Positions 12,601 through 64,000 of a DNA stretch of 64,000 nt are shown here, one piece after another; positions within the stretch are counted from its first letter, which is position 1; each line of letters opens with the position of its first letter. The notes beneath the pieces are model-generated. The model had not been told where the DNA came from and did no database searches. It was given only the letters and a program-made list of their open reading frames with translations. The position numbers and the translations under genes are program-made. This DNA comes from Phalacrocorax aristotelis. Taxonomy: Eukaryota; Chordata; Aves; Suliformes; Phalacrocoracidae. The stretch lies in contig NC_134280.1 of the NCBI RefSeq assembly GCF_949628215.1, positions 44,852,621 to 44,916,620 on the forward strand, read 5' to 3'.

Positions 12601-12620
12601 CAAGAAGGCGATCCTAGCAA

Positions 12621-13123: not shown

Positions 13124-13130
13124 GTCTTTT

Positions 13131-13148: not shown

Positions 13149-13188
13149 TCAAGGGTTGGAGATAACAACAGCTGCTGGTCCCAGCACC

Positions 13189-15057: not shown

Positions 15058-15085
15058 AGGGGCCCTGCCTCCAGCCGGGTGGAGG
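15055..15085 (+). promoter_or_regulatory. Predicted gag-pol stop-codon readthrough element
   Basis: The gag stop UAG (15055-15057) is in the same frame as pol, with no intervening stop. Ten nt downstream, CCTCCA (15068-15073) and TGGAGG (15080-15085) can form a perfect 6-bp stem around the loop GCCGGG. A structured element shortly after an in-frame UAG is how gammaretroviruses make Gag-Pol. Function here is inferred; a pseudoknot with the downstream CCGGGC is possible but weak. Confidence 0.6.
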
Positions 15086-19145: not shown

Positions 19146-22100
19146 CCAAGATGGATGCATAGCAGCCAAGGTGGCCGCCTTAGCAACCAAGATTATAGCC
19201 ATAGCAACCAAGGTGGCCGCCTTAGCAACAAACGTGGCGCCCTAGCAACCAGGATGGCCACACTAACAACGCTAGATTCTTGCCAAAGCAAGCAATGTGA
19301 CGGCCGTAGCAACGAAGTTTGCTTCCATAGCAAACAAGATGTTTACCGTAGCAACCAAGTCGTTTGACCTAGCAACCAAAATGGCTGCCATAGCAACCAA
19401 AATGGCCACTCTTGCAACCGAGATGGCTGACCAAACAACCAAGATGGTAGCCATAGCAACCAAGATGGCGAGCCTAGCAACCAAGATGGCTTCCCTAGCA
19501 ACCAAGTTGTCCAACTTAGCAGCACAGATGGCTGCCATAGTAACCAAAATGGCGACCCTAGCCACAAAGATGGTTGCCATAGCAAAGAGGATGGCCTCAC
19601 TAGCAAACAAAATAGATGCCATAGCAACCAAGATTGCAACCCTAGTAACGAGGATGGCTGCCATAGCAACTAAGATGGCCGCCCTAGCAACAAAGGTGGC
19701 TGCCATAGCAACCAAGATGGCCATTCTGGCAATCAAAATGGTTGCCATAGCAACCAAGATGGCCAATTTAGCAGCAAAGATGGCTGTTATAGCGACCAAA
19801 ATGGCGACCCTAGCAACAAAGATGGCTGCCATAGCAACCAAGATGGTTGCCAAAGCAACCAAAATGGCTGCTGTAACAACCAATATGGATGCCTAGCAAC
19901 CAAGATAGTTGCTATAGCAACCAAGATGGCAATCCTAGCAACCAAGATGGTTGCCATAGCAGCCAAAGTGGCCAGTTTAGCAACAAAGTTGGCTGCCATA
20001 GCAACCAAGATGGTTGCCAAAGCAACCAAAATGGCTGCTGTAGCAACCAATATGGCTGCCTAGCAACCAAGAGAGTTGCTATAGCAACCAAGAGGGCGAT
20101 CCTAGCAACCAAGATGGTTGCTAGCAGCCAAGGTGGCCAGTTTAGCAACAAAGTTGGCTGCCATAGCAACCAAGGTGGCCGCCCTAGCAACCAAGATTAT
20201 AGCCATAGCAACCAAGGTGGCCGCCTTAGCAACAAACGTGGCGCCCTAGCAACCAGGATGGCCACACTAACAACGCTAGATTCTTGCCAAAGCAAGCAAT
20301 GTGACGGCCGTAGCAACGAAGTTTGCTTCCATAGCAAACAAGATGTTTACCGTAGCAACCAAGTCGTGTGACCTAGCAACCAAGATGGCCACGCCAGCAA
20401 CCAAGATGGTTGCCATAGCAGCCAAGGTGGCCAGTTTAGCAACAAAGTTGGCTGCCATAGCAACCAAGGTGGCAGCCCTAGCAACCAAGATGGATGCATA
20501 GCAGCCAAGGTGGCCGCCCTAGCAACCAAGATTATAGCCATAGCAACCAAGGTGGCCGCCTTAGCAACAAATGTGGCACCCTAGCAACCAGGATGGCCAG
20601 ACTAACAACGCTAGATGGTAGCCAAAGCAACCAATATGACGGCCGTAGCAACGAAGTTTGTTTCCGTAGCAACCAAGATGTTTACCGTAGCAAGCTATTC
20701 GGCTGACCTAGCAAACAAGATGGCTGCCCCTAGCAACCAAGATGACTGCCCCTAGCAACCAAGATGGTTGCCCTAGCAACCAAGATTGCTGCCATAACAG
20801 CCTAAATGGCCACTCTAGCAACCAAAATGGTTGCCATAGCAACCAAGATTGCGACCCTAGCAATCAAAATGGTTGCCATAGCAACCAAGATGGCCAATTT
20901 AGCAGCAAAGATGGCTGTTATAGCGACCAAAATGGCCACCCTAGCAACAAAGACGGCTGCCATAGCAACCAAGATGGTTGCCAAAGCAACCAATATGGCT
21001 GCCGTAGAAACCAATATGGCTCCCTAGCAACCAAGAGAGTTGCTATAGCAACCAAGAGGGCGATCCTAGCAACCAAGATGGTTGCCATAGCAGCCAAGGT
21101 GGCCGCCATAGCAACCAGGATTATAGCCATAGCAACCATGATGGTTGCCAAAGCAACAAACGTGGCGCCCTAGCAACCAGGATGGCCACACTAACAACGC
21201 TAGATTCTTGCCAAAGCAAGCAATGTGACGGCCGTAGCAACGAAGTTTGCTTCCATAGCAAACAAGATGTTTACCGTAGCAACCAAGTCGTTTGACCTAG
21301 CAACCAAAATGGCTGCCATAGCAACCAAAATGGCCACTCTTGCAACCGAGATGGCTGACCAAACAACCAAGATGGTAGCCATAGCAACCAAGATGGCGAG
21401 CCTAGCAACCAAGATGGCTTCCCTAGCAACCAAGGTGTCCAACTTAGCAGCAAAGATGGCTGCCATAGTAACCAAAATCGCGACGCTAGCAACAAAGATG
21501 GTTGCCATAGCAAAGAGGATGGCCTCACTAGCAAACAAAATAGATGCCATAGCAACCAAGATTGCAACCCTAGCAACGAGGATGGCTGCCATAGCAACTA
21601 AGATGGCCACCCTAGCAACAAAGGTGGCTGCCATAGTAACCAAGATGTCCATTCTAGCAATCAAAATTGTTGCCATAGCAACCAAGATGGCCAATTTAGC
21701 AGCAAAGATGGCTGTTATAGCGACAAAAATGGGCACCCTAGCAACAAAGTTGGCTGCCATAGCAACCAAGATGGTTGCCAAAGCAACCAAAATGGCTGCT
21801 GTAGCAACCAATATGGCTGCCTAGCAACGAAGATAGTTGCTATAGCAAACAAGACGGCGATCCTAGCAACCAAGATGGTTGCCATAGCAGCCAAAGTGGC
21901 CAGTTTAGCAACAAAGTTGGGTGCCATAGCAACCAAGGTGGCAGCCCTAGCAACCAAGATTATAGCCATAGCAGCCAAGGTGGCCGCCCTAGGAACCAAG
22001 ATTATAGCCATAGCAACCAAGGTGGCCGCCGTAGCAACAAACGTGGCGCCCTAGCAACCAGGATGGCCACACTAACAACGCTAGATTCTTGCCAAAGCAA

Positions 22101-25100
22101 GCAATATGACGGCCGTAGCAACGAAGTGTGATTCCATAGCAACCAAGATGTTTACCGTAGCAAGCTATTCGGCTGACCTAGCAACCAAGATGGCTGCCCC
22201 TAGCAACCAAGATGACTGCCCCTAGCAACCAAGATGGTCGTCCTATCAACCAATATGGCTGCCCTAGCAACCAAGATGGCACCCTAGCAACCAAAAAGGC
22301 TGCCATAGCAACCAAGAAGAATGCCCGAGGAACCAAGATTGCGACCCTAGCAACGAAGATGGCTGCCATAGCAACCAAGATGGCCACCTTAGCAACCAAG
22401 ACGGTTGCCCTAGCAGACAAGGTGGCCAATTTATCAGCAAAGACGGCTGCCATAGCAACCAAGATGGCCGCCGTAGCAACTAAGACAGTTGCCATAGCAA
22501 CCAAGGTGGCCACCTTAGCAACAAAGGTGGCGCCCTAGCAACCAGGATGGCCACACTAACAATGCTAGATTCTTGCCAAAGCAACCAATATGGCAGCCGT
22601 AGCAACGAAGTTTGTTTCCATAGCAACCAAGATGGCTGCCATAGCAACCAAAATGACTACCCCTAGCAACCAAGATGGTTGCCATAGCAGCCAAAGTGGC
22701 CAGTTTAGCAACAAAGTTGGCTGCCATAGCAACCAAGATGGTTGCCAAAGCAACCAAAATGGCTGCTGTAGCAACCAATATGGCTGCCTAGCAACCAAGA
22801 TAGTTGCTATAGCAACCAAGAGGGCGATCCTAGCAACCAAGATGGTTGCTAGCTGCCAAGGTGGCCAGTTTAGCAACAAAGTTGGCTGCCATAGCAACCA
22901 AGGTGGTCGCCCTAACAATCAAGATTATAGCCGTAGCAACCAAGGTGGCCGCCTTAGCAACAAACGTGGCGCCCTAGCAACCAGGATGACCACACTAACA
23001 ACGCTAGATTCTTGCCAAAGCAAGCAATATGACGGCCGTAGCAACGAAGTGTGATTCCATAGCAACCAAGATGTTTACACTAGCAACCAAGTCGTGTGAC
23101 CTAGCAACCAAGATGGCCACGCCAGCAACCAAGATGGTTGCCATAGCAGCCAAGGTGGCCAGTTTAGCAACAAAGTTGGCTGCCATAGCAACCAAGGTGG
23201 CAGCCCTAGCAATCAAGATGGATGCATAGCAGCCAAGGTGGCCGCCCTAGCAACCAAGATTATAGCCATAGCAACCAAGGTGGCCGCCTTAGCAACAAAT
23301 GTGGCACCCTAGCAACCAGGGTGGCCACACTAACAACGCTAGATTCTTGCCAAAGCAACCAATATGACGGCCGTAGCAACGAAGTTTGTTTCCGTAGCAA
23401 CCAAGCTGTTTACCGTAGCAAGCTATTCGGCTGACCTAGCAACCAAGATGGCTGCCCCTAGCAACCAAGATGGCTGCCCTAGCAACCAAGGTGGCCAGTT
23501 TAGCAACAAAGTTGGCTGCCATAGCAACCAAGGTGGCAGCCCTAGCAACCAAGATGGATGCATAGCAGCCAAGGTGGCCGCCCTAGCAACCAAAATGGTT
23601 GCCATAGCAACCAAGATTGCGACCCTAGCAACGAGGATGGCTGCCATAGCAACTAAGATGGCCATTCTAGCAATCAAAATGGTTGCCATAGCAACCAAGA
23701 TGGCCAATTTAGCAGCAAAGATGGCTGTTATAGCGACCAAAATGGCCACCCTAGCAACAAAGACGGCTGCCATAGCAACCAAGATGGTTGCCAAAGCAAC
23801 CAAAATGGCTGCCGTAGCAACCAATATGGCTGCCTAGCAACCAAGATAGTTGCTATAGCAACCAAAAGGGCGATCCTAGCAACCAAGATGGTTGCCATAG
23901 CAGCCAAAGTGGCCAGTTTAGCAACAAAGTTGGCTGCCATAGCAACCAAGGTGGCAGCCCTAGCAACAAAGTTGGCTGAAAGAGCAGCCAAGGTGGCCGC
24001 CCTAGCAACCAAGATTATAGCCATAGCAACCAAGGTGGCCGCCTTAGCAACAAACGTGGCGCCCTAGCAACCAGGATGGCCACACTAACAACGCTAGATT
24101 CTTGCCAAAGAAAGCAATATGGCGGCCGTAGCAACGAAGTTTGCTTCCATAGCAAACAAGATGTTTACCGTAGCAACCAAGTCGTTTGACCGAGCAACCA
24201 AAATGGCTGCCATAGCAACCAAAATGGCCACTCTTGCAACCGAGATGGCTGACCAAACAACCAAGATGGTAGCCATAGCAACCAAGATGGCGAGCCTAGC
24301 AACCAAGATGGCTTCCCTAGCAACCAAGTTGTCCAACTTAGCAGCAAAGATGGCTGCCATAGTAACCAAAATGGCGACCCTAGCAACAAAGATGGTTGCC
24401 ATAGCAAAGAGGATGGCCTCACTAGCAAACAAAATACCTGCCATAGCAACCACGATTGCAACCCTAGCAACGAGGATGGCTGCCATAGCAACTGCGATGG
24501 CCGCCCTAGCAATCAAGATTATAGCCATAGCAACTAAGATGGCCGCCCTATCAACAAAGGTGGCTGCCATAGCAACCAAGATGGCCATTCTAGCAATCAA
24601 AATGGTTGCCATAGCAACCAAGATGGCCAATTTAGCAGCAAAGATGGCTGTTATAGCGACCAAAATGGCCACCCTAGCAACAAAGACGGCTGCCATAGCA
24701 ACCAAGATGGTTGCCAAAGCAACCAAAATGGCTGCCGTAGCAACCAATATGGCTGACTAGCAACCAAGATAGTTGCTATAGCAACCAAGAGGGCGATCCT
24801 AGCCACCAAGATGGTTGCTAGCAGCCAAGGTGGCCAGTTTAGCAACAAAGTTGGCTGCCATAGCAACCAAGGTGGCCGCCCTAGCAATCAAGATTATAGC
24901 CATAGCAACCAAGGTGGCCGCCTTAGCAACAAACGTGGCGCCCTAGCAACCAGGATGGCCACACTAACAACGCTAGATTCTTGCCAAAGCAAGCAATATG
25001 ACGGCCGTAGCAACGAAGTGTGATTCCATAGCAACCAAGATGTTTACACTAGCAACCAAGTCGTGTGACCTAGCAACAATGATGGCCACGCCAGCAACCA

Positions 25101-26451
25101 AGATGGTTGCCATAGCAGCCAAGGTGGCAGCCCTAGCAACCAAGATGGATGCATAGCAGCCAAGGTGGCCGCCCTAGCAACCAAGATTATAGCCATAGCA
25201 ACCAAGGTGGCCGCCTTAGCAACAAATGTGGCACCCTAGCAACCAGGATGGCCACACTAACAACGCTAGATTCTTGCCAACGCAACCAATATGGCTGCCG
25301 TAGCATCCAATATAGCTGCCTAGCAACAAAGATATTTGCAATATCAGCCAAGAGGGCGATCCTAGCAGCAAAGTTGGATGCCATAGCAACCAAGGTAGCA
25401 GCCCTAGCAACCAAGATTATAGCCATAGCAACCAAGGTGGCCGCCTTAGCAACAAACGTGGCATCCTAGCAACCAGGACGGCCACACTAACAACGGTAGA
25501 TTCCTGCCAAAGCAAGCAATGTGACGGCCGTAGCAACGAAGTTTGCTTCCATAGCAAACAAGATGTTTACCGTAGCAACCAAGTCGTTTGACCTAGCAAC
25601 CAAAATGGCTGCCATAGCAACCAAAATGGCCACTCTTGCAACCGAGATGGCTGACCAAACAACCAAGATGGTAGCCATAGCAACCAAGATGGCGAGCCTA
25701 GCAACCAAGATGGCTTCCCTAGCAACCAAGTTGTCCAACTTAGCAGCAAAGATGGCTGCCATAGTAACCAAAATGGCGACCCTAGCAACAAAGATGGTTG
25801 CCATAGCAAAGAGGATGGCCTCACTAGCAAACAAAATAGCTGCCATAGCAACCAAGATTGCAACCCTAGCAACGAGGATGGCTGCCATAGCAACTAAGAT
25901 GGCCGCCCTAGCAACAAAGGTGGCTGCCATAGCAACTAAGATGGCCATTCTGGCAATCAAAATGGTTGCCATAGCAACCAAGATGGCCAATTTAGCAGCA
26001 AAGATGGCTGTTATAGCGACCAAAATGGCGACCCTAGCAACAAAGACGGCTGCCATAGCAACCAAGATGGTTGCCAAAGCAACCAAAATGGCTGCTGTAA
26101 CAACCAATATGGCTGCCTAGCAAGCAAGATAGTTGCTATAGCAACCAAGAGGGCGATCCTAGCAACCAAGATGGTGTCCATAGCAGCCAAAGTGGCCAGT
26201 TTAGCAACCAAGGTGGCAGCCCTAGCAACCAAGATGGATGCATAGCAGCCCAGGTTGCCGCCCTAGCAACCAAGATTATAGCCATAGCAACCAAGGTGGC
26301 CGCCTTAGCAACAAACGTGGCGCCCTAGCAACCAGGATGGCCACACTAACAACGCTAGATTCTTGCCAAAGCAACCAATATGACGGCCGTAGCAACGAAG
26401 TTTGTTTCCGTAGCAACCAAGATGTTTACCGTAGCAAGCTATTCGGCTGAC

Positions 26452-33570: not shown

Positions 33571-36500
33571 CCTAGCAACCAAGATTATAGCCATAGCAAC
33601 CAAGGTGGCCGCCTTAGCAACAAACGTGGCATCCTAGCAACCAGGACGGCCACACTAACAACGGTAGATTCCTGCCAAAGCAAGCAATGTGACGGCCGTA
33701 GCAACGAAGTTTGCTTCCATAGCAAACAAGATGTTTACCGTAGCAACCAAGTCGTTTGACCTAGCAGCCAAAATGGCTGCCATAGCAACCAAAATGGCCA
33801 CTCTTGCAACCGAGATGGCTGACCAAGCAACCAAGATGGTAACCATAGCAACCAAGATGGCGAGCCTAGCAACCAAGATGGCTTCCCTAGCAACCAAGGT
33901 GTCCAACTTAGCAGCAAAGATGGCTGTCATAGTAACCAAAATGGCGACCCTAGCAACAAAGATGGTTGCCACAGCAAAGAGGATGGCCTCACTAGCAAAA
34001 AAACCAGCTGCCATAGCAACCAAGATTGCGACCCTAGCAACGAGAATGGCTGCCATAGCAACTAAGATGGCCATTCTAGCAATCAAAATGGTTGCCATAG
34101 CAACCAAGATGGCCAATATAGCAGCAAAGATGGCTGTTATAGCGACCAAAATGGCCACCCTAGCAACAAAGACGGCTGCCATAGCAACCAAGATGGTTGC
34201 CAAAGCAACCAAAATGGCTGCTGTAACAACCAATATGGCTGCCTAGCAACCAAGATAGTTGCTATAGCAACCAAGAGGGCGATCCTAGCAACCAAGATGG
34301 TTGCCATAGGAGGCAAAATGGCCAGTTTAGCAACAAAGTTGGCTGCCATAGCAACCAAGGTGGCAGCCCTAGCAACCAAGATGGATGCATAGCAGCCAAG
34401 GTGGCCGCCGTAGCAACTAAGACAGTTGCCATAGCAAGCAAGGTGGCCGCCTTAGCAACAAACATGGCGCCCTAGCAACCAGGATGGCCACACTAACAAC
34501 GCTAGATTCTTGCCAAAGAAAGAAATATGACGGCCGTAGCAACGAAGTTTGCTTCCATAGCAAACAAGATGTTTACCGTAGCAACCAAGTCGTGTGACCT
34601 AGCAACCAAGATGGCCACGCCATAGTAACCAAAATGGCGACCCTACCAACAAAGATGGTTGCCATAGCAAAGAGGATGGCCTCACTAGCAAACAAAATAT
34701 CTGCCATAGCAACCAAGATTGCAACCCTAGCAACGAGGATGGCTGCCATAGCAACTAAGATGGCCGCCCTAGCAACAAAGGTGGCTCCCATAGCAACCAA
34801 GATGGCCATTCTAGCAATCAAAATGGTTGCCATAGCAACCAAGATGGCCAATTTAGCAGCAAAGATGGCTGTTATAGCGACCAAAATGGGCACCCTAGCA
34901 ACAAAGACGGCTGCCATAGCAACCAAGATGGTTGCCAAAGCAACCAAAATGGCTGCTGTAGCAACCAATATGGCTGCCTAGCAAGCAAGATAGTTGCTAT
35001 AGCAACCAAGAGGGCGATCCTAGCAACCAAGATGGTTGCTAGCAGCCAAGGTGGCCAGTTTAGCAACAAAGTTGGCTGCCATAGCAACCAAGGTGGCCGC
35101 CCTAGCAATCAAGATTATATCCATAGCAACCAAGGTGGCCGCCTTAGCAACAAAGGTGGCGCCCTAGCAACCAGAATGGCCACACTAACAACGCTAGATT
35201 CTTGCCAAAGCAACTAATATGACGGCCGTAGCAACGAAGTGTGATTCCATAGCAACCAAGATATTTACACTAGCAACCAAGTCGTGTGACCTAGCAACCA
35301 AGATGGCCACGCCAGCAACCAAGATGGTTGCCATAGCAGCCAAGGTGGCCAGTTTAGCAACAAAGTTGGCTGCCATAGCAACCAAGGTGGCAGCCCTAGC
35401 AACCAAGATGGATGCATAGCAGCCAAGGTGGCCGCTCTAGCAACCAAGATTATAGCCATAGCAACCAAGGTGGCCGCCTTAGCAACAAAGGTGGCGCCCT
35501 AGCAACCAGGATGGCCACACTAACAACGCTAGATTCTTGCCAAAGCAACCAATATGACGGCCGTAGCAACGAAGTTTGTTTCCATAGCAACCAAGATGTT
35601 TACCGTAGCAAGCTATTCGGCTGACCTAGCAACCAAGATGGCTGCCCCTAGCAACCAAGATGACTGCCCCTAGCAACCAAGAAGCTCGCCCTAGCAACCA
35701 AGATGGCTGCCCTAGCAACCAATATGGCACCCTAGCAACCAAAAAGGCTGCCATAGCAACCAAGAAGAATGCCCGAGGAACCAAGATTGCGACCCTAGCA
35801 ACGAAGATGGCTGCCATAGCAACCAAGATGGCCACCTTAGCAACCAAGACGGTTGCCCTAGCAGACAAGGTGGCCAATTTATCAGCAAAGACGGCTGCCA
35901 TAGCAACCAAGATGGCCAACAGAACAACTAAAATGGCTTCCATAGCAACCAAGATGGCCGCCGTAGCAACTAAGACAGTTGCCATAGCAACCAAGGTGGC
36001 CACCTTAGCAACAAAGGTGGCGCCCTAGCAACCAGGATGGCCACACTAACAATGCTAGATTCTTGCCAAAGCAACCAATATGGCAGCCGTAGCAACGAAG
36101 TTTGTTTCCATAGCAACCAAGATGGCTGCCATAGCAACCAAAATGACTACCCCTAGCAACCAAGATGGTTGCCCTAGCAACCAAGATTGCTGCCATAGCA
36201 GCCTAAATGGCCACTCGAGCAACCAAAATGGTTGCCATAGCAACCAAGATTGCGACCCTAGCAACGAGGATGGCTGCCATAGCAACTAAGATGGCCGCCC
36301 TAGCAACAAAGGTGGCTGCCATAGCAACCAAGATGGCCATTCTAGCAATCAAAATGGTTGCCATAGCAACCAAGATGGCCAATTTAGCAGCAAAGATGGC
36401 TGTTATAGTGACCAAAATGGCCACCCTAGCAACACAGATGGCTGCCATAGCAACCAAGATGGTTGCCAAAGCAACCAAAATGGCTGCCGTAGCAACCAAT

Positions 36501-39500
36501 ATGGCTGCCTAGCAACCAAGATAGTTGCTATAGCAACCAAGAGGGCGATCCTAGCAACCAAGATGGTTGCCATAGCAGACAAAGTGGCCAGTTTAGCAAC
36601 AAAGTTGGCTGCCATAGCAACCAAGGTGGCAGCCCTAGCAACCAAGATTATAGCCATAGCAGCCAAGGTGGCCGCCCTAGCAACCAAGATTATAGCCATA
36701 GCAACCAAGGTGGCCGCCTTAGCAACAAACGTGGCATCCTAGCAACCAGGACGGCCACACTAACAACGGTAGATTCCTGCCAAAGCAAGCAATGTGACGG
36801 CCGTAGCAACGAAGTTTGCTTCCATAGCAAACAAGATGTTTACCGTAGCAACCAAGTCGTTTGACCTAGCAGCCAAAATGGCTGCCATAGCAACCAAAAT
36901 GGCCACTCTTGCAACCGAGATGGCTGACCAAGCAACCAAGATGGTAACCATAGCAACCAAGATGGCGAGCCTAGCAACCAAGATGGCTTCCCTAGCAACC
37001 AAGGTGTCCAACTTAGCAGCAAAGATGGCTGTCATAGTAACCAAAATGGCGACCCTAGCAACAAAGATGGTTGCCACAGCAAAGAGGATGGCCTCACTAG
37101 CAAAAAAAACAGCTGCCATAGCAACCAAGATTGCGACCCTAGCAACGAGAATGGCTGCCATAGCAACTAAGATGGCCATTCTAGCAATCAAAATGGTTGC
37201 CATAGCAACCAAGATGGCCAATATAGCAGCAAAGATGGCTGTTATAGCGACCAAAATGGCCACCCTAGCAACAAAGACGGCTGCCATAGCAACCAAGATG
37301 GTTGCCAAAGCAACCAAAATGGCTGCTGTAACAACCAATATGGCTGCCTAGCAACCAAGATAGTTGCTATAGCAACCAAGAGGGCGATCCTAGCAACCAA
37401 GATGGTTGCCATAGGAGGCAAAATGGCCAGTTTAGCAACAAAGTTGGCTGCCATAGCAACCAAGGTGGCAGCCCTAGCAACCAAGATGGATGCATAGCAG
37501 CCAAGGTGGCCGCCGTAGCAACTAAGACAGTTGCCATAGCAAGCAAGGTGGCCGCCTTAGCAACAAACATGGCGCCCTAGCAACCAGGATGGCCACACTA
37601 ACAACGCTAGATTCTTGCCAAAGAAAGAAATATGACGGCCGTAGCAACGAAGTTTGCTTCCATAGCAAACAAGATGTTTACCGTAGCAACCAAGTCGTGT
37701 GACCTAGCAACCAAGATGGCCACGCCATAGTAACCAAAATGGCGACCCTACCAACAAAGATGGTTGCCATAGCAAAGAGGATGGCCTCACTAGCAAACAA
37801 AATATCTGCCATAGCAACCAAGATTGCAACCCTAGCAACGAGGATGGCTGCCATAGCAACTAAGATGGCCGCCCTAGCAACAAAGGTGGCTCCCATAGCA
37901 ACCAAGATGGCCATTCTAGCAATCAAAATGGTTGCCATAGCAACCAAGATGGCCAATTTAGCAGCAAAGATGGCTGTTATAGCGACCAAAATGGGCACCC
38001 TAGCAACAAAGACGGCTGCCATAGCAACCAAGATGGTTGCCAAAGCAACCAAAATGGCTGCTGTAGCAACCAATATGGCTGCCTAGCAAGCAAGATAGTT
38101 GCTATAGCAACCAAGAGGGCGATCCTAGCAACCAAGATGGTTGCTAGCAGCCAAGGTGGCCAGTTTAGCAACAAAGTTGGCTGCCATAGCAACCAAGGTG
38201 GCCGCCCTAGCAATCAAGATTATATCCATAGCAACCAAGGTGGCCGCCTTAGCAACAAAGGTGGCGCCCTAGCAACCAGGATGGCCACACTAACAACGCT
38301 AGATTCTTGCCAAAGCAACTAATATGACGGCCGTAGCAACGAAGTGTGATTCCATAGCAACCAAGATATTTACACTAGCAACCAAGTCGTGTGACCTAGC
38401 AACCAAGATGGCCACGCCAGCAACCAAGATGGTTGCCATAGCAGCCAAGGTGGCCAGTTTAGCAACAAAGTTGGCTGCCATAGCAACCAAGGTGGCAGCC
38501 CTAGCAACCAAGATGGATGCATAGCAGCCAAGGTGGCCGCTCTAGCAACCAAGATTATAGCCATAGCAACCAAGGTGGCCGCCTTAGCAACAAAGGTGGC
38601 GCCCTAGCAACCAGGATGGCCACACTAACAACGCTAGATTCTTGCCAAAGCAACCAATATGACGGCCGTAGCAACGAAGTTTGTTTCCATAGCAACCAAG
38701 ATGTTTACCGTAGCAAGCTATTCGGCTGACCTAGCAACCAAGATGGCTGCCCCTAGCAACCAAGATGACTGCCCCTAGCAACCAAGAAGCTCGCCCTAGC
38801 AACCAAGATGGCTGCCCTAGCAACCAATATGGCACCCTAGCAACCAAAAAGGCTGCCATAGCAACCAAGAAGAATGCCCGAGGAACCAAGATTGCGACCC
38901 TAGCAACGAAGATGGCTGCCATAGCAACCAAGATGGCCACCTTAGCAACCAAGACGGTTGCCCTAGCAGACAAGGTGGCCAATTTATCAGCAAAGACGGC
39001 TGCCATAGCAACCAAGATGGCCAACAGAACAACTAAAATGGCTTCCATAGCAACCAAGATGGCCGCCGTAGCAACTAAGACAGTTGCCATAGCAACCAAG
39101 GTGGCCACCTTAGCAACAAAGGTGGCGCCCTAGCAACCAGGATGGCCACACTAACAATGCTAGATTCTTGCCAAAGCAACCAATATGGCAGCCGTAGCAA
39201 CGAAGTTTGTTTCCATAGCAACCAAGATGGCTGCCATAGCAACCAAAATGACTACCCCTAGCAACCAAGATGGTTGCCCTAGCAACCAAGATTGCTGCCA
39301 TAGCAGCCTAAATGGCCACTCGAGCAACCAAAATGGTTGCCATAGCAACCAAGATTGCGACCCTAGCAACGAGGATGGCTGCCATAGCAACTAAGATGGC
39401 CGCCCTAGCAACAAAGGTGGCTGCCATAGCAACCAAGATGGCCATTCTAGCAATCAAAATGGTTGCCATAGCAACCAAGATGGCCAATTTAGCAGCAAAG

Positions 39501-39590
39501 ATGGCTGTTATAGCGACCAAAATGGCCACCCTAGCAACACAGATGGCTGCCGTAGCAACCAAGATGGTTGCCAAAGCAACCAATATGTCT
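33571..39590. repeat. Tandem duplication, 3105-bp offset
   Basis: 33571-36675 is followed by a near-identical copy from 36676 to about 39590, all at the same 3105-bp offset. Differences are few (for example a C/A change in the A-run at about 34003 versus 37108, and AGAATGG versus AGGATGG near 35175 versus 38280). The last ~190 bp of the second copy are replaced by another block. Confidence 0.85.
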
Positions 39591-39594
39591 GCCG

Positions 39595-42500
39595 TAGCAA
39601 CCAATATAGCTGCGTAGCAACCAAGATATTTGCAATATCAGCCAAGAGGGCGATCCTAGCAGCAAAGTTGGATGCCATAGCAACCAAGGTAGCCGCCTTA
39701 GCAACAAACGTGGCATCCTAGCAACCAGGACGGCCACACTAACAACGATAGATTCCTGCCAAAGCAAGCAATGTGACGGCCGTAGCTACGAAGTTTGCTT
39801 CCATAGCAAACAAGATGTTTACCGTAGCAACCAAGTCGTTTGACCTAGCAACCAAAATGGCTGCCATAGCAACCAAAATGGCCACTCTTGCAACCGAGAT
39901 GGCTGACCAAGCAACCAAGATGGTAACCATAGCAACCAAGACGGCGAGCCTAGCAACCAAGATGGCTTCCCTAGCAACCAAGGTGTCCAACTTAGCAGCA
40001 AAGATGGCTGCCATAGTAACCAAAATGGCGACCCTAGCAACAAAGATGGTTGCCACAGCAAAGAGGATGGCCTCACTAGCAAAAAAAACAGCTGCCATAG
40101 CAACCAAGATTGCAACCCTAGCAACGAGGATGGCTGCCATAGCAACTAAGATGGCCATTCTAGCAATCAAAATGGTTGCCATAGCAACCAAGATGGCCAA
40201 TTTAGCAGCAAAGATGGCTGTTATAGCGACCAAAATGGCCACCCTAGCAACAAAGACGGCTGCCATAGCAACCAAGATGGTTGCCAAAGCAACCAAAATG
40301 GCTGCTGTAGCAACAAATATGGATGCTGTAGCAACCAAATAGTTGCTATAGCAACCAAGAAGGCGATCCTAGCAACCAAGATGGTTGCCATAGCAGCCAA
40401 AGTGGCCAGTTTAGCAACAAAGTTGCCTTCCATAGCAACCAAGATGGCCGCCGTAGCAACTAAGACAGTTGCCATAGCAACCAAGGTGGCCACCTTAGCA
40501 ACAAAGGTGGCGCCCTAGCAACCAGGATGGCACACACACACTGCTAGATTCTTGCCAAAGCAACCAATATGGCAGCCGTAGCAACGAAGTTTGTTTCCAT
40601 AGCAACCAAGATGGCTGCCATAGCAACCAAGGTGGCAGCCCTAGCAACCAAGATTATAGCCATAGCAGCCAAGGTGGCCGTCCTAGGAACCAAGATTATA
40701 GCCATAGCAACCAAGGTGGCCGCCTTAGCAACAAATGTGGCGCCCTAGCAACCAGGATGGCCACACTAACAACGCTAGATTCTTGCCAAAGAAAGCAATA
40801 TGACGGCCGTAGCAACGAAGTTTGTTTCCATAGCAACCAAGATGTTTACCGTAGCAAGCTATTCGGCTGACCTAGCAACCAAGATGGCTGCCATAGTAAC
40901 CAAAATGGCGACCCTCTCAAGAAAGATTGCTGCCATAGCAAAGAGGATGGCCTCACTAGCAAACAAAATGGCTGCCATAGCAACCAAGATTGCAACCCTA
41001 GCAACGAGGATGGCTGCCATAGCAACTAAGATGGCCGCCCTAGCAACAAAGGTGGCTGCCATGGCAACCAAGATGGCCATTCTAGCAATCAAAATGGTTG
41101 CCATAGCAATCAAGATGGCCAATTTAGCAGCAAAGATGGCTGTTATAGCGACCAAAATGGGCACCCTAGCAACAAAGACGGCTGCCATAGCAACCAAGAT
41201 GGTTGCCAAAGCAACCAATATGTCTGCCGTAGCAACCAATATAGCTGCATAGCAACCAAGATATTTGCAATATCAGCCAAGAGGGCGATCCTAGCAGCAA
41301 AGTTGGATGCCATAGCAACCAAGGTAGCCGCCTTAGCAACAAACGTGGCATCCTAGCAACCAGGACGGCCACACTAACAACGGTAGATTCCTGCCAAAGC
41401 AAGCAATGTGACGGCCGTAGCTACGAAGTTTGCTTCCATAGCAAACAAGATGTTTACCGTAGCAACCAAGTCGTTTGACCTAGCAACCAAAATGGCTGCC
41501 ATAGCAACCAAAATGGCCACTCTTGCAACCAAGATGGCTGACCAAGCAACCAAGATGGTAACCATAGCAACCAAGACGGCGAGCCTAGCAACCAAGATGG
41601 CTTCCCTAGCAACCAAGGTGTCCAACTTAGCAGCAAAGATGGCTGCCATAGTAACCAAAATGGCGACCCTAGCAACAAAGATGGTTGCCACAGCAAAGAG
41701 GATGGCCTCACTAGCAAAAAAACCAGCTGCCATAGCAACCAAGATTGCAACCCTAGCAACGAGGATGGCTGCCATAGCAACTAAGATGGCCATTCTAGCA
41801 ATCAAAATGGTTGCCATAGCAACCAAGATGGCCAATTTAGCAGCAAAGATGGCTGTTATAGCGACCAAAATGGCCACCCTAGCAACAAAGACGGCTGCCA
41901 TAGCAACCAAGATGGTTGCCAAAGCAACCAAAATGGCTGCTGTAGCAACAAATATGGATGCTGTAGCAACCAAATAGTTGCTATAGCAACCAAGAAGGCG
42001 ATCCTAGCAACCAAGATGGTTGCCATAGCAGCCAAAGTGGCCAGTTTAGCAACAAAGTTGGCTTCCATAGCAACCAAGATGGCCGCCGTAGCAACTAAGA
42101 CAGTTGCCATAGCAACCAAGGTGGCCACCTTAGCAACAAAGGTGCCGCCCTAGCAACCAGGATGGCACACACACACTGCTAGATTCTTGCCAAAGCAACC
42201 AATATGGCAGCCGTAGCAACGAAGTTTGTTTCCATAGCAACCAAGATGGCTGCCATAGCAACCAAGGTGGCAGCCCTAGCAACCAAGATTATAGCCATAG
42301 CAGCCAAGGTGGCCGTCCTAGGAACCAAGATTATAGCCATAGCAACCAAGGTGGCCGCCTTAGCAACAAATGTGGCGCCCTAGCAACCAGGATGGCCACA
42401 CTAACAACGGTAGATTCTTGCCAAAGAAAGCAATATGACGGCCGTAGCAACGAAGTTTGCTTCCATAGCAACCAAGATGTTTACCGTAGCAAGCTATTCG

Positions 42501-45500
42501 GTTGACCTAGCAACCAAGATGGCTGCCATAGTAACCAAAATGGCGACCCTCTCAAGAAAGATCGCTGCCATAGCAAAGAGGATGGCCTCACTAGCAAACA
42601 AAATGGCTGCCATAGCAACCAAGATTGCAACCCTAGCAACGAGGATGGCTGCCATAGCAACTAAGATGGCCGCCCTAGCAACAAAGGTGGCTGCCATGGC
42701 AACCAAGATGGCCATTCTAGCAATCAAAATGGTTGCCATAGCAATCAAGATGGCCAATTTAGCAGCAAAGATGGCTGTTATAGCGACCAAAATGGGCACC
42801 CTAGCAACAAAGACGGCTGCCATAGCAACCAAGATGGTTGCCAAAGCAACCAATATGTCTGCCGTAGCAACCAATATAGCTGCGTAGCAACCAAGATATT
42901 TGCAATATCAGCCAAGAGGGCGATCCTAGCAGCAAAGTTGGATGCCATAGCAACCAAGGTAGCCGCCTTAGCAACAAACGTGGCATCCTAGCAACCAGGA
43001 CGGCCACACTAACAACGGTAGATTCCTGCCAAAGCAAGCAATGTGACGGCCGTAGCTACGAAGTTTGCTTCCATAGCAAACAAGATGTTTACCGTAGCAA
43101 CCAAGTCGTTTGACCTAGCAACCAAAATGGCTGCCATAGCAACCAAAATGGCCACTCTTGCAACCGAGATGGCTGACCAAGCAACCAAGATGGTAACCAT
43201 AGCAACCAAGACGGCGAGCCTAGCAACCAAGATGGCTTCCCTAGCAACCAAGGTGTCCAACTTAGCAGCAAAGATGGCTGCCATAGTAACCAAAATGGCG
43301 ACCCTAGCAACAAAGATGGTTGCCACAGCAAAGAGGATGGCCTCACTAGCAAAAAAAACAGCTGCCATAGCAACCAAGATTGCAACCCTAGCAACGAGGA
43401 TGGCTGCCATAGCAACTAAGATGGCCATTCTAGCAATCAAAATGGTTGCCATAGCAACCAAGATGGCCAATTTAGCAGCAAAGATGGCTGTTATAGCGAC
43501 CAAAATGGCCACCCTAGCAACAAAGACGGCTGCCATAGCAACCAAGATGGTTGCCAAAGCAACCAAAATGGCTGCTGTAGCAACAAATATGGATGCTGTA
43601 GCAACCAAATAGTTGCTATAGCAACCAAGAAGGCGATCCTAGCAACCAAGATGGTTGCCATAGCAGCCAAAGTGGCCAGTTTAGCAACAAAGTTGGCTTC
43701 CATAGCAACCAAGATGGCCGCCGTAGCAACTAAGACAGTTGCCATAGCAACCAAGGTGGCCACCTTAGCAACAAAGGTGGCGCCCTAGCAACCAGGATGG
43801 CACACACACACTGCTAGATTCTTGCCAAAGCAACCAATATGGCAGCCGTAGCAACGAAGTTTGTTTCCATAGCAACCAAGATGGCTGCCATAGCAACCAA
43901 GGTGGCAGCCCTAGCAACCAAGATTATAGCCATAGCAGCCAAGGTGGCCGTCCTAGGAACCAAGATTATAGCCATAGCAACCAAGGTGGCCGCCTTAGCA
44001 ACAAACGTGGCGCCCTAGCAACCAGGATGGCCACACTAACAACGCTAGATTCTTGCCAAAGAAAGCAATATGACGGCCGTAGCAACGAAGTTTGCTTCCA
44101 TAGCAACCAAGATGTTTACCGTAGCAAGCTATTCGGCTGACCTAGCAACCAAGATGGCTGCCATAGTAACCAAAATGGCGACCCTCTCAAGAAAGATCGC
44201 TGCCATAGCAAAGAGGATGGCCTCACTAGCAAACAAAATGGCTGCCATAGCAACCAAGATTGCAACCCTAGCAACGAGGATGGCTGCCATAGCAACTAAG
44301 ATGGCCGCCCTAGCAACAAAGGTGGCTGCCATAGCAACCAAGATGGCCATTCTAGCAATCAAAATGGTTGCCATAGCAACCAAGATGGCCAATTTAGCAG
44401 CAAAGATGGCTGTTATAGTGAGCAAAATGGCCACCCTAGCAACACAGATGGCTGCCGTAGCAACCAAGATGGTTGCCAAAGCAACCAATATGTCTGCCGT
44501 AGCAACCAATATAGCTGCATAGCAACCAAGATATTTGCAATATCAGCCAAGACGGCGATCCTAGCAGCAAAGTTGGATGCCATAGCAACCAAGGTAGCCG
44601 CCTTAGCAACAAACGTGGCATCCTAGCAACCAGGACGGCCACACTAACAACGGTAGATTCCTGCCAAAGCAAGCAATGTGACGGCCGTAGCTACGAAGTT
44701 TGCTTCCATAGCAAACAAGATGTTTACCGTAGCAACCAAGTCGTTTGACCTAGCAACCAAAATGGCTGCCATAGCAACCAAAATGGCCACTCTTGCAACC
44801 GAGATGGCTGACCAAGCAACCAAGATGGTAACCATAGCAACCAAGACGGCGAGCCTAGCAACCAAGATGGCTTCCCTAGCAACCAAGGTGTCCAACTTAG
44901 CAGCAAAGATGGCTGCCATAGTAACCAAAATGGCGACCCTAGCAACAAAGATGGTTGCCACAGCAAAGAGGATGGCCTCACTAGCAAAAAAAACAGCTGC
45001 CATAGCAACCAAGATTGCAACCCTAGCAACGAGGATGGCTGCCATAGCAACTAAGATGGCCATTCTAGCAATCAAAATGGTTGCCATAGCAACCAAGATG
45101 GCCAATTTAGCAGCAAAGATGGCTGTTATAGCGACCAAAATGGCCACCCTAGCAACAAAGACGGCTGCCATAGCAACCAAGATGGTTGCCAAAGCAACCA
45201 AAATGGCTGCTGTAGCAACAAATATGGATGCTGTAGCAACCAAATAGTTGCTATAGCAACCAAGAAGGCGATCCTAGCAACCAAGATGGTTGCCATAGCA
45301 GCCAAAGTGGCCAGTTTAGCAACAAAGTTGGCTTCCATAGCAACCAAGATGGCCGCCGTAGCAACTAAGACAGTTGCCATAGCAACCAAGGTGGCCACCT
45401 TAGCAACAAAGGTGGCACCCTAGCAACCAGGATGGCACACACACACTGCTAGATTCCTGCCAAAGCAACCAATATGGCAGCCGTAGCAACTAAGTTTGTT

Positions 45501-45545
45501 TCCATAGCAACCAAGATGGCTGCCATAGCAACCAAGGTGGCAGCC
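39595..45545. repeat. 1635-bp higher-order repeat, about 3.6 tandem copies
   Basis: The boundary segment with GATATTTGCAATATC follows 39595, 41230, 42865 and 44500, exactly 1635 bp apart. Each copy carries the same private features: CGGTAGATTCC (CGATAGATTCC in the first), TAGCTACGAAG, the A-run after CTAGCAAA, and CACACACACACTGCTAG. The fourth copy stops at about 45545. A further partial copy lies at about 46617-48090. Confidence 0.88.
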
Positions 45546-46616
45546 CTACCAACCAAGATGGTTGCATAGCAGCCAAGGTGGCCGCCATAGCAATCAAGAT
45601 TATAGCCATAGCAACCAAGGTGGCCGCCTTAGCAACAAACGTGGCGCCCTAGCAACCAGGATGGCCACACTAACAAAGCTAGATTCTTGCCAAAGCAACC
45701 AATATGACGGCCGTAGCAACGAAGTGTGATTCCATAGCAACCAAGATATTTACACTAGCAACCAAGTCGTGTGACCTAGCAACCAAGATGGCCACGCCAG
45801 CAACCAAGATGGTTGCCATAGCAGCCAAGGTGGCCAGTTTAGCAACAAAGTTGGCTGCCATAGCAACCAAGGTGGCAGCCCTAGCAACCAAGATGGATGC
45901 ATAGCAGCCAAGGTGGCCGCCCTAGCAACCAAGATTATAGCCATAGCAACCAAGGTGGCCGCCTTAGCAACAAATGTGGCACCCTAGCAACCAGGATGGC
46001 CACACTAACAACGCTAGATTCTTGCCAAAGAAAGCAATATGACGGCCGTAGCAACGAAGTTTGTTTCCGTAGCAACCAAGATGTTTACCGTAGCAAGCTA
46101 TTCGGCTGACCTAGCAACCAAGATGGCTGCCCCTAGCAACCAAGATGACTGCCCCTAGCAACCAAGATGTTTACCGTAGCAAGCTATTCGGCTGACCTAG
46201 CAACCAAGATGGCTGCCCCTAGCAACCAAGATGACTGCCCCTAGCAACCAAGATGGTCGCCCTAGCAACCAAGATGGCTGCCCTAGCAACCAATATGGCG
46301 ACCCTAGCAACCAAAAAGGCTGCCATAGCAACCAAGAAGAATGCCCGAGGAACCAAGATTGCGACCCTAGCAACGAAGATGGCTGCCATAGCAACCAAGA
46401 TGGCCACCTTAGCAACCAAGACGGTTGCCCTAGCAGACAAGGTGGCCAGTTTAGCAACAAAGTTGGCTGCCATAGCAACCAAGGTGGCAGCCCTAGCAAC
46501 CAAGATGGATGCATAGCAGCCAAGGTGGCTGCCCTAGCAACCAAGATTATAGCCATAGCAACCAAGGTGGCCGCCTTAGCAACAAACGTGGCACCCTAGC
46601 AACCAGGATGGCCACA

Positions 46617-48090
46617 CTAACAACGGTAGATTCCTGCCAAAGCAAGCAATGTGACGGCCGTAGCTACGAAGTTTGCTTCCATAGCAAACAAGATGTTTAC
46701 CGTAGCAACCAAGTCGTTTGACCTAGCAACCAAAATGGCTGCCATAGCAACCAAAATGGCCACTCTTGCAACCAAGATGGCTGACCAAGCAACCAAGATG
46801 GTAACCATAGCAACCAAGACGGCGAGCCTAGCAACCAAGATGGCTTCCCTAGCAACCAAGGTGTCCAACTTAGCAGCAAAGATGGCTGCCATAGTAACCA
46901 AAATGGCGACCCTAGCAACAAAGATGGTTGCCACAGCAAAGAGGATGGCCTCACTAGCAAAAAAAACAGCTGCCATAGCAACCAAGATTGCAACCCTAGC
47001 AACGAGGATGGCTGCCATAGCAACTAAGATGGCCATTCTAGCAATCAAAATGGTTGCCATAGCAACCAAGATGGCCAATTTAGCAGCAAAGATGGCTGTT
47101 ATAGCGACCAAAATGGCCACCCTAGCAACAAAGACGGCTGCCATAGCAACCAAGATGGTTGCCAAAGCAACCAAAATGGCTGCTGTAGCAACAAATATGG
47201 ATGCTGTAGCAACCAAATAGTTGCTATAGCAACCAAGAAGGCGATCCTAGCAACCAAGATGGTTGCCATAGCAGCCAAAGTGGCCAGTTTAGCAACAAAG
47301 TTGGCTGCCATAGCAACCAAGATGGCCGCCGTAGCAACTAAGACAGTTGCCATAGCAACCAAGGTGGCCACCTTAGCAACAAAGGTGGCGCCCTAGCAAC
47401 CAGGATGGCACACACACACTGCTAGATTCTTGCCAAAGCAACCAATATGGCAGCCGTAGCAACGAAGTTTGTTTCCATAGCAACCAAGATGGCTGCCATA
47501 GCAACCAAGGTGGCAGCCCTACCAACCAAGATTATAGCCATAGCAGCCAAGGTGGCCGTCCTAGGAACCAAGATTATAGCCATAGCAACCAAGGTGGCCG
47601 CCTTAGCAACAAAGTTGGCGCCCTAGCAACCAGGATGGCCACACTAACAACGCTAGATTCTTGCCAAAGAAAGCAATATGACGGCCGTAGCAACGAAGTT
47701 TGCTTCCATAGCAACCAAGATGTTTACCGTAGCAAGCTATTCGGCTGACCTAGCAACCAAGATGGCTGCCATAGTAACCAAAATGGCGACCCTCTCAAGA
47801 AAGATTGCTGCCATAGCAAAGAGGATGGCCTCACTTACAAACAAAATGGCTGCCATAGCAACCAAGATTGCAACCCTAGCAACGAGGATGGCTGCCATAG
47901 CACCTAAGATGGCCGCCCTAGCAACAAAGGTGGCTGCCATGGCAACCAAGATGGCCATTCTAGCAATCAAAATGGTTGCCATAGCAATCAAGATGGCCAA
48001 TTTAGCAGCAAAGATGGCTGTTATAGCCACCAAAATGGGCACCCTAGCAACAAAGACGGCTGCCATAGCAACCAAGATGGTTGCCAAAGC
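46617..48090. repeat. Detached partial copy of the 1635-bp repeat
   Basis: It has the same order and private variants as the 1635-bp repeat (TAGCTACGAAG, CACACACACACTGC, CCCTCTCAAGAAAG) but is separated from copy four by about 1.07 kb of a different block arrangement (about 45546-46616). Confidence 0.75.
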
Positions 48091-48561
48091 AACCAAAATG
48101 GCTGCTGTAACAACCAATATGGCTGCCTAGCAACCAAGATAGTTGCTATAGCAACCAAGAGGGCGATCCTAGCAACCAAGATGGTTGCCATAGCAGCCAA
48201 GGTGGCCAGTTTAGCAACAAAGTTGGCTGCCATAGCAACCAAGGTGGCAGCCCTAGCAACCAAGATGGATGCATAGCAGCCAAGGTGGCCGCCTTAGCAA
48301 CAAACGTGGCGCCCTAGCAACCAGGATGGCCACACTAACAACGCTAGATTCTTGCCAAAGCAACCAATATGACGGCCGTAGCAACGAAGTGTGATTCCAT
48401 AGCAACCAAGATATTTACACTAGCAACCAAGTCGTGTGACCTAGCAACCAAGATGGCCACGCCAGCAACCAAGATGGTTGCCATAGCAGCCAAGGTGGCC
48501 AGTTTAGCAACAAAGTTGGCTGCCATAGCAACCAAGGTGGCAGCCCTAGCAACCAAGATGG

Positions 48562-60100: not shown

Positions 60101-60650
60101 GTGTGATTCCATAGCAACCAAGATGTTTACCGTAGCAACCAAGTCGTGTGACCTAGCAACCAAGATGGCTGCCATAGTAACCATAATGGCGACCCTAGCA
60201 AGAAAGATGGTTGCCATAGCAAAGAGGATGGCCTCACTAGCAAACAAAATAGCTGCCACAGCAACCAAGATTGCAACCCTAGCAATGAGGATGCCTGCCA
60301 TAGCAACTAAGATGGCCGCCCTAGCAACAAAGGTGGCTGCCATAGCAACCAAGATGGCCATTCTAGCAATCAAAATGGTTGCCATAGCAACCAAGATGGC
60401 CAATTTAGCAGCAAAGATGGCTGTTATAGCGACCAAAATGGCCACCCTAGCAACAAAGACGGCTGCCATAGCAACCAAGATGGTTGCCAAAGCAACCAAA
60501 ATGGCTGCTGTAACAACCAATATGGAGGCCTAGCAACCAAGAGAGTTGCTATAGCAACCAAGACGGCGATCCTAGCAACCAAGATGGTTGCCATAGCAGC
60601 CAAAGTGGCCAGTTTAGCAACAAAGATGGCTGCCATAGCAACCAAGATGG

Positions 60651-62811
60651 TTGCCAGAGCAACCAATATGGCTGCCGTAGCAACCAATATAGCTGCCTAG
60701 CAACAAAGATATTTGCAATATCAGCCAAGAGGGCGATCCTAGCAGCAAAGTTGGATGCCATAGCAACCAAGGTAGCAGCCCTAGCAACCAAGATTATAGC
60801 CATAGCAGCCAAGGTGGCCGCCTTAGCAACAAACGTGGCATCCTAGCAACCAGGACGGCCACACTAACAACGGTAGATTCCTGCCAAAGCAAGCAACGTG
60901 ACGGCCGTAGCAACGAAGTTTGCTTCCATAGCAAACAAGATGTTTACCGTAGCAACCAAGTCGTTTGACCTAGCAACCAAAATGGCTGCCATAGCAACCA
61001 AAATGGCCACTCTTGCAACCGAGATGGCTGACCAAGCAACCAAGATGGTAACCATAGCAACCAAGATGGCGAGCCTAGCAACCAAGATGGCTTCCCTAGC
61101 AACCAAGGTGTCCAACTTAGCAGCAAAGATGGCTGCCATAGTAACCAAAATGGCGACCCTAGCAACAAAGATGGTTGCCATAGCAAAGAGGATGGCCTCA
61201 CTAGCAAACAAAATAGCTGCCATAGCAACCAAGATTGCAACCCTAGCAACGAGGATGGCTGCCATAGCAACTGTGATGGCCGCCCTAGCAACAAAGGTGG
61301 CTGCCATAGCAACCAAGATGGCCATTCTAGCAATCAAAATGGTTGCCATAGCAACCAAGATGGCCAATTTAGCAGCAAAGATGGCTGTTATAGCGACCAA
61401 AATGGCCACCCTAGCAACAAAGACGGCTGCCATAGCAACCAAGATGGTTGCCAAAGCAACCAAAATGGCTGCTGTAACAACCAATATGGAGGCCTAGCAA
61501 CCAAGAGAGTTGCTATAGCAACCAAGAGGGCGATCCTAGCAACCAAGATGGTTGCCATAGCATCCAAAGTGGCCAGTTTAGCAACAAAGTTGGCTGCCAT
61601 AGCAACCATGATGGTTGCCAAAGCAACCAAAATGGCCGCCCTAGCAACCAATATGGCTGCCTAGCAACCAAGATAGTTGCTATAGCAAACAAGACGGCGA
61701 TCCTAGCAACCAAGATGGTTGCCATAGCAGCCAAGGTGGCCAGTTTAGCAACAAAGTTGGCTGCCATAGCAACCAAGGTGGCAGCCCTAGCAACCAAGAT
61801 GGTTGCATAGCAGCCAGGTGGCCGCCCTAGCAACCAAGATTATAGCCATAGCAACCAAGGTGGCCGCCTTAGCAACAAATGTGGCATCCTAGCAACCAGG
61901 ATGGCCACACTAACAACGCTAGATTCTTGCCAAAGCAACCAATATGACGGCCGTAGCAACGAAGTGTGATTCCATAGCAACCAAGATATTTACACTAGCA
62001 ACCAAGTCGTGTGACCTAGCAACCAAGATGGCCACGCCAGCAACCAAGATGGTTGCCATAGCAGCCAAGGTGGCCAGTTTAGCAACAAAGTTGGCTGCCA
62101 TAGCAACCAAGGTGGCAGCCCTAGCAACCAAGATGGATGCATAGCAGCCAAGGTGGCCGCCTTAGCAACAAACGTGGCGCCCTAGCAACCAGGATGGCCA
62201 CACTAACAACGCTAGATTCTTGCCAAAGCAACCAATATGACGGCCGTAACAACGAAGTTTGTTTCCGTAGCAACCAAGATGTTTACCGTAGCAAGCTATT
62301 CGGCTGACCTAGCAACCAAGATGGCTGCCCCTAGCAACCAAGATGACTGCCCCTAGCAACCAAGATGGTCGCCCTAGCAACCAAAATGGCTGCCCTAGCA
62401 ACCAATATGGCGACCCTAGCAACCAAAAAGGCTGCCATAGCAACCAAGAAGAATGCCCGAGGAACCAAGATTGCGACCCTAGCAACGAAGATGGCTGCCA
62501 TAGCAACCAAGATAGCCACATTAGCAACCAAGACGGTTGCCCTAGCAGACAAGGTTGCCAATTTATCAGCAAAGACGTCTGCCATAGCAACCAAGATGGC
62601 CAACAGAACAACTAAAATGGCTTCCATAGCAACCAAGATGGCCGCCGTAGCAACTAAGACAGTTGCCATAGCAACCAAGGTGGCCACCTTAGCAACAAAG
62701 GTGGCGCCCTAGCAACCAGGATGGCCACACTAACAATGCTAGATTCTTGCCAAAGCAACCAATATGGCAGCCGTAGCAACGAAGTTTGTTTCCATAGCAA
62801 CAAAGATGGCT
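60651..62811. repeat. Dispersed block, copy 2 (5621-bp offset)
   Basis: Second copy of 55030-57190. Shared private variants include AATATGGAGGCC, GCAGCCAGGTGGCC (a shortened unit) and AAGGTTGCCAATTTATC. The copies diverge after about 62811. Confidence 0.75.
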
Positions 62812-64000
62812 GCCATAGCAACCAAGATGGTTGCCAAAGCAACCAAAATGGCTGCTGTAGCAACCAATATGGATGCCTAGCAACCAAGAGAGTTGCTATA
62901 GCATCCAAGAGGGCGATCCTAGCAACCAAGATGGTTGCTAGCAGCCAAGGTGGCCAGTTTAGCAACAAAGTTGGCTGCCATAGCAACCAAGGTAGCAGCC
63001 CTAGCAACCAAGATGGTTGCATAGCAGCCAAGGTGGCCGCCCTAGCAACCAAGATTATAGCCATAGCAACCAAGGTGGCCGCCTTAGCAACAAACGTGGC
63101 GCCCTAGCAACAAGGTTGGCCACACTAACAACGCTAGTTTCTTGCCAAAGCAAGCAATATGACGGCCGTAGCAACGAAGTGTGATTCCATAGCTACCAAG
63201 ATATTTACACTAGCAACCAAGTCGTGTGACCTAGCAACCAAGATGGCCACGCCAGCAACCAAGATGGTTGCCATAGCAGCCAAGGTGGCCAGTTTAGCAA
63301 CAAAGTTGGCTGCCATAGCAACCAAGGTGGCAGCCCTAGCAACCAAGAGGGATGCATAGCAGCCAAGGTGGCCGCCCTAGCAACCAAGATTATAGCCATA
63401 GCAACCAAGGTGGCCGCCTTAGCAACAAATGTGGCACCCTAGCAACCAGGATGGCCACACTAACAACGCTAGATTCTTGCCAAAGCAACCAATATGACGG
63501 CCGTAGCAAGGAAGTTTGTTTCCATAGCAACCAAGATGTTTACCGTAGCAAGCTATTCGGCTGACCTAGCAACCAAGATGGCTGCCCCTAGCAACCAAGA
63601 TGACTGCCCCTAGCAACCAAGATGGTCGCCCTAGCAACCAAGATGGCTGCCCTAGCAATCAATATGGTACCCTAGCAACCAAAAAGGCTGCCATAGCAAC
63701 CAAGAAGAATGCCCGAGGAACCAAGATTGCGACCCTAGCAACGAAGATGGCTGCCATAGCAACCAAGATGGCCACCTTAGCAACCAAGACGGTTGCCCTA
63801 GCAGACAAGGTGGCCAATTTATCAGCAAAGACGGCTGCCATAGCAACCAAGATGGCCAACAGAACAACTAAAATGGCTTCCATAGCAACCAAGATGGCCG
63901 CCGTAGCAACTAAGACAGTTGCCATAGCAACCAAGGTGGCCACCTTAGCAACAAAGGTGGCGCCCTAGCAACCAGGATGGCCACACTAACAACGCTAGAT

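Follow-up and report, generated by a model that had tools for sequence, protein, structure and literature searches.

Organisation of the locus

We analysed a 64,000-bp window of the shag genome (Phalacrocorax aristotelis, contig NC_134280.1, positions 44,852,621 to 44,916,620), which holds MROH2B-like exons, two endogenous retroviruses (ERVs) and tracts of one short-unit satellite (Table 1). The first exon is of the HEAT-repeat type (PF23221, E = 9.3e-9), and three further candidates each fall below the cut-off alone; joined, the four matched PF23221 (E = 1.9e-16) and, short of the cut-off for that family, PF23210 (2e-5). These exons stand to the left of the satellite arrays, and MROH2B is not specific to birds. 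Against the PDB, the MROH-like translation had one weak match (E = 0.07). Near the left end of the window, an LTR-like stretch is about 72% identical, in two pieces, to positions 9664-10265.

The young ERV lies inside the satellite. Its LTRs (12626-13123 and 18648-19145) are identical at 494/498 positions (99.2%), and both flanks carry CCAAG, likely the 5-bp target duplication. A paralogue of the empty insertion site is contiguous near position 47180. The element has RT and integrase matches in Pfam and ORFs of 659 and 1054 codons, and its LTRs presumably resemble those of passerine ERVs. Assuming about 2e-9 neutral changes per site and year, the four differences in 498 positions would date the insertion to about 2 million years ago. 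The second ERV is shorter and older, carries an RT match and sits between the two relic arrays; it is 87.1% identical to the young ERV over 3254 bp, from mid-pol on.

Table 1. Features of the 64,000-bp window
Feature	Position	Strand	Basis or remark
LTR-like stretch	17-553		two pieces
MROH2B-like exon	1104-1283		PF23221
Candidate MROH2B-like exon	1663-1758		below cut-off alone
Candidate MROH2B-like exon	2754-2897		below cut-off alone
Candidate MROH2B-like exon	3451-3543		below cut-off alone
Small relic satellite	5873-6478	+	TRF, profile, piece comparison; about 29 units
Second ERV	6477 to about 10265		RT match
Relic satellite	10265-12030	+	TRF, profiles, piece comparison; most pieces without a near-identical partner
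Satellite immediately left of the young ERV	12031-12625	+	TRF, piece comparison; near-identical to main array
Young ERV	12626-19145	+	LTRs, flanks, empty-site paralogue, Pfam on pieces
Main satellite array	19146-64000	+	TRF, profile decomposition, diagonal self-comparison; extends to window end
Recent duplication (lag 3105 bp)	33571-39583	+	4 mismatches in 2908
Tandem higher-order repeat (1635 bp)	39338-45548	+	copies about 99% identical

Units and turnover of the satellite

TRF reported the main array as a tandem repeat at 19146-63982 with a period of 21/42 bp, corresponding to about 2136 units of 21 bp (array length divided by 21), and found satellite outside it at 5873-6478 and 10265-12625. 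Aligning the array (19146-64000) to a cyclic profile gave, as its best description, a 42-bp dimer of an A unit (ACCAAGATGGCTGCCATAGCA) and a B unit (ACCAAGATGGCCACCCTAGCA). The profile fit itself imposes the A/B alternation; independent backing for the dimer comes from the TRF score (28571 at 42 bp vs 11228 at 21 bp), and the profile score was also better for the dimer than for the 21-bp unit. Plain autocorrelation leaves the two periods unseparated (0.616 at 42 and 0.619 at 21 bp). Mean unit spacing is 20.98 bp, with numerous 20- and 22-bp units, and the array carries 169 one-base deletions and 147 one-base insertions against the unit. Counting fragments, 192 distinct forms occur among 1090 A segments and 216 among 1089 B segments. 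The consensus unit also contains AAGATGG, an ATG in good start context, of which there are 502 copies.

The main array undergoes active turnover and homogenisation. Diagonal self-comparison yielded 676 near-identical segment pairs (at least 96% identity over 250 bp) covering 98.7% of the array, with duplicated blocks up to 99.9% identical. These pairs include higher-order repeats, namely the 3105-bp duplication and the 1635-bp repeat (39338-43913 vs 40973-45548; 37 mismatches in 4576 positions). Such mosaic, near-identical copies show that the satellite grows by block exchange and duplication. We then compared 120-bp pieces by the highest ungapped identity they reached with the main array, whose own pieces served as the reference (median 0.99; 75 sampled). 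The satellite immediately left of the young ERV reached a median of 0.975 (8 pieces), and the relic tracts gave 0.77 (10265-12030; 28 pieces, range 0.58-0.94) and 0.76 (5873-6478; 9 pieces).

YY1-like and RFX-like motifs

The preliminary description regarded each unit as a YY1 core followed, at the junction to the next unit, by an RFX X-box. The consensus does include both, as CAAGATGGC and, in the A unit, GYTGCC-AT-AGCAAC, but not every unit carries them: among the about 2136 units, exact copies on the + strand numbered 199 for CAAGATGGC and 182 for the strict X-box, GTNRCCN0-3RGYAAC. The source for this rule also describes a functional form with one strong half, RGYAAC, and a degenerate half (PMC3414849). 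The core AANATGGC occurs 493 times on the + strand, and the full YY1 consensus CAANATGGCGGC, cited as the parent of the unit's motif, has a single exact copy in the array. The strict X-box was absent from the - strand, and its spacer was 2 bp in 162 of the 182 copies and 1 bp in 20. The relaxed form GYNRCCN1-3RGYAAC was likewise confined to the + strand (793 vs 0), and AGCAAC was found 1471 times on the + vs 46 times on the - strand. In 20 first-order Markov sequences the mean counts over both strands were 0.6 for CAAGATGGC, 15 for AANATGGC, 0 for CAANATGGCGGC, 0.9 for the strict X-box and 67 for AGCAAC; in 50 such sequences the relaxed X-box averaged 3.3. A dyad is present in the A consensus and absent from the B consensus, and among the about 2136 units the dyad patterns G[CT]TGCCATAGCAAC and GTTGCN4GCAAC were counted 285 and 160 times, respectively.

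Using YY1 and RFX position weight matrices (PWMs), we detected 757 YY1-like and 923 RFX-like sites in the array at p < 1e-4 (35% and about 42% of units, respectively), and 244 and 584 at 1e-5. Non-satellite sequence gave YY1/RFX counts of 2/1 in 1-5800, 0/0 in 6500-10230 and 0/1 in 12626-19145. RFX sites fell within A units in 631/896 cases (70%) at 1e-4, a total that differs from 923 because the threshold was rounded for A/B assignment, and in 420/584 at 1e-5; the corresponding figures for YY1 were 422/757 and 96/244. A PWM scan against shuffled units, put forward earlier as one way to check the motifs, came out in favour of both. When only dimers free of indels were kept (730 of about 1068), 57% had a YY1 and 78% an RFX site at 1e-4, and for neither motif did any of 1000 column permutations attain the mean best score or the hit fraction of the real dimers. 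The best permuted fraction was 0.53 for YY1, near the real 0.57, and 0.31 for RFX, where the real value was 0.78. The resemblance to YY1 and RFX sites exceeds composition chance for these two motifs, which were chosen after sight of the sequence, so that the permutation result is uncorrected for the choice.

Overlap and helical phase of the sites

A fixed 21-bp alternation of the two motifs had also been proposed. The register itself is well kept, with steps between sites being multiples of 21 bp in 80% (YY1) and 85% (RFX) of cases and exactly 21 bp in 236/756 and 294/895, but the two motifs often share bases. At 423/757 YY1 sites, an RFX match begins 7 bp after the YY1 start, which for sites of 12 and 14 bp means a 5-bp overlap, and AANATGGC overlaps a relaxed X-box in 231/493 copies. 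One base common to both motifs is C in the YY1 consensus but T in the strict X-box; in A units it is C at 0.52 and T at 0.39, and the consensus C is the second X-box base. Since the matches overlap, the two factors would compete. Coherence at a 10.5-bp phase (YY1/RFX) was 0.94/0.93 over 500 bp, 0.78/0.76 over 2 kb and 0.25/0.23 over 10 kb, and this decay contradicts the placement of all sites on one helical face for thousands of units.

Conservation and recent mutation

Windowed information content ranked the YY1 window 39th of 42 in A units and 27th of 42 in B units, and the X-box window 10th and 26th; values were high across TGCCATAGCAACCAA, and the YY1 stretch of A units had some of the lowest. 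We further identified 156 recent private mutations at 37,568 sites, calling them only at sites on which three or more near-identical copies were unanimous and dropping the rest. The trinucleotide-corrected observed/expected (O/E) ratio was 0.97 for TAGCAAC (95% CI 0.72-1.28), 1.02 for CAAGATGGC (0.81-1.28) and 0.74 for variable positions (0.49-1.07). Other pseudocounts gave 0.94, 0.99 and 0.71, respectively, and six more filter settings, some requiring just two copies, gave 0.93-1.12 for TAGCAAC and 0.84-1.02 for CAAGATGGC. Recent mutations were thus not depleted in TAGCAAC or CAAGATGGC in a test that a depletion of about 30% could escape. Likewise, recent changes at half-site G/C positions (28/5313) did not differ from those at seven other G/C positions (60/12428; Fisher P = 0.73), a comparison that left out the A/B-variable G12 (8/1782). 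Non-CpG rates across the 21 positions were slightly uneven (P = 0.027 against uniformity), and the recent rate per position correlated with long-term divergence in one of seven runs (Spearman 0.54, P = 0.011). There were 56 transitions vs 100 transversions (27 vs 33 at the strictest setting). This correlation and the few transitions suggest that conversion between units probably adds to point mutation.

The CpG observed/expected ratio is 0.37 in the array, compared with 0.20 in 1-5800. Recent changes at CpG (12/1507) were only about twice as frequent as other recent changes in the array (144/36061). Low germline methylation could possibly account for the array figures.

Over the longer term, half-site G/C positions diverged at 462/6415 (7.2%) in the main array, whose copies are not independent in these counts, vs 19-31% in other classes; the relic arrays gave 69/337 (20.5%) vs 18-29%. 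Parsimony on dimer clusters, with six A/B-variable columns set aside, assigned 3.2 changes to each half-site G/C position vs 5.7 elsewhere with 52 clusters (P = 0.031), and 1.7 vs 4.6 with 31 clusters (P = 0.005). Given the noise in trees built from 42-bp units and an A/B alignment that is itself a fit, this retention is suggestive only. AGCAAC is the conserved core, with less loss in the main array than in the relics. Its long-term retention, to which founder effects or biased amplification may equally have led, is the only result to favour, in a suggestive way, an RFX-related or other core-specific cause.

Interpretation and alternative explanations

On balance we favour a structural reading, namely a short-unit satellite under active homogenisation that has an RFX half-site as its core and no required YY1 or RFX function. 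The array grows and turns over as blocks measuring between a few hundred bp and several kb are exchanged and duplicated. Its most stable element is the RFX half-site TAGCAAC, which a variable left arm completes to an X-box dyad in A units. If the satellite is accessible, binding by RFX proteins would be probable. The YY1-like CAAGATGGC would be a weaker and more variable neighbour overlapping the X-box, so YY1 and RFX would tend toward mutual exclusion and not toward paving one face. Any biological effect would most likely be factor-assisted chromatin packaging of the array, by analogy with mouse pericentromeric repeats.

Some long-term retention of the half-site is nevertheless a point against a purely neutral account. 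We regard it as doubtful that the satellite is kept and amplified through RFX dimers on X-boxes and half-sites, with YY1 incidental, whether by seeding heterochromatin or by transcription in testis. The strand bias of AGCAAC, the confinement of X-boxes to the + strand and their predominant 2-bp spacer would fit such a role, as would a half-site that is retained in the main array, lost in relics and less changed than other G/C positions; however, recent half-site mutations are undepleted, and the A consensus prefers C where the strict X-box has T. In a more elaborate form, which we hold to be unlikely, biased amplification would keep the core half-site or X-box in the living array and let it go in relics, making the array an RFX-dependent chromatin platform with YY1 as a competing switch. 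The RFX core would then distinguish the living array much as the CENP-B box does living alpha satellite. A joint YY1-plus-RFX composite acting as a sink, a loop or a DXZ4-like boundary platform seems very improbable. Both motifs beat the column permutations and largely keep the 21-bp register, but more than half of the YY1 sites overlap an RFX match by 5 bp, phase is gone over kilobases, the YY1 window ranks low in conservation and the full YY1 consensus occurs once.

The dyad might instead reflect an avian-satellite layout with a 21- or 41-bp period, favoured for DNA structure or for a satellite-binding protein other than RFX, with the X-box incidental. The chicken W sate-21 offers a precedent in its 21-bp unit, CNM-like dyad and divergent higher-order repeats (PMC9974502), but its arms share no sequence with those of the shag satellite, and the dyad here is confined to the A consensus. 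Single-strand folding of five sequences was not clearly above shuffles (z from 0.82 to -1.42), which speaks against hairpin or cruciform drive, and in the first 250 dimers there was no special 10.5-bp signal of bent DNA, the real value being reached by 33% (WW) and 62.5% (AA/TT) of 200 permutations. We judge such a layout an improbable explanation. A coding tandem repeat appears extremely unlikely: heptapeptide frames are open on both consensus strands, a 21-bp period preserves the frame and array ORFs reach 231 aa, but the one-base indels are frequent, and no stop-free run exceeds 234 codons on one strand or 241 on the other, vs about 1800 in indel-free dimers in shuffled order. Origin of the satellite from an MROH exon was also set aside, as a gapped 19-column match near position 1110 scored 27, the 95th percentile of 200 shuffles.

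If RFX binds, the locus would offer X-boxes by the hundred and more than 1000 half-sites in one natural array, on which the idea that satellites evolve around transcription-factor sites could be tested directly. If it is not bound, it would serve as a warning that a satellite consensus may mimic a regulatory composite carried by a minority of units.

Comparison with known satellites

No published YY1/RFX satellite or matching bird satellite was named among the matches listed, which is not proof of absence. Four unit-derived 14-mers had no match in the main texts of 5.39 million papers; the exact two-unit pattern occurred 0 times in viral and prokaryote contigs, a result of little bearing on birds, and Rfam at gathering thresholds gave 0 matches in the window. 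Macrosatellites have monomers of kilobase length, whereas the basic unit of the shag satellite is 21 bp and its kilobase blocks are secondary duplications. DXZ4, a tandem array to which the preliminary description likened the satellite for YY1 binding, reportedly binds CTCF (PMC3491370). For mouse pericentromeric repeats it has been hypothesised that iterated transcription-factor binding outside genes aids heterochromatin (PMC4363358); the likeness lies in repeated factor sites, which in the shag are predicted ones.

The closest parallels are in the chicken, in CNM, a 41-bp repeat of acrocentric centromeres with dyad symmetry and higher-order repeats, and the W-linked sate-21 with the sequence TTTTCnnnnnGAAAAnnnnnn (PMC9974502). 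The shag period of 21 or 42 bp is of the CNM and sate-21 kind (21 or 41-42 bp). By description, CNM is alike in its period near the 42-bp dimer and its higher-order repeats, and its dyad may have a counterpart in the A consensus. With sate-21 the shag satellite has in common the 21-bp unit, divergent higher-order repeats, large arrays and, possibly, the dyad. The sate-21 sequence given in that source is absent from the shag consensus, and its arms are TTTTC/GAAAA, whereas those of the shag satellite are G(C/T)TGCC/AGCAAC, with the dyad in the A consensus only. In layout, the shag satellite resembles chicken W sate-21, with a different sequence.
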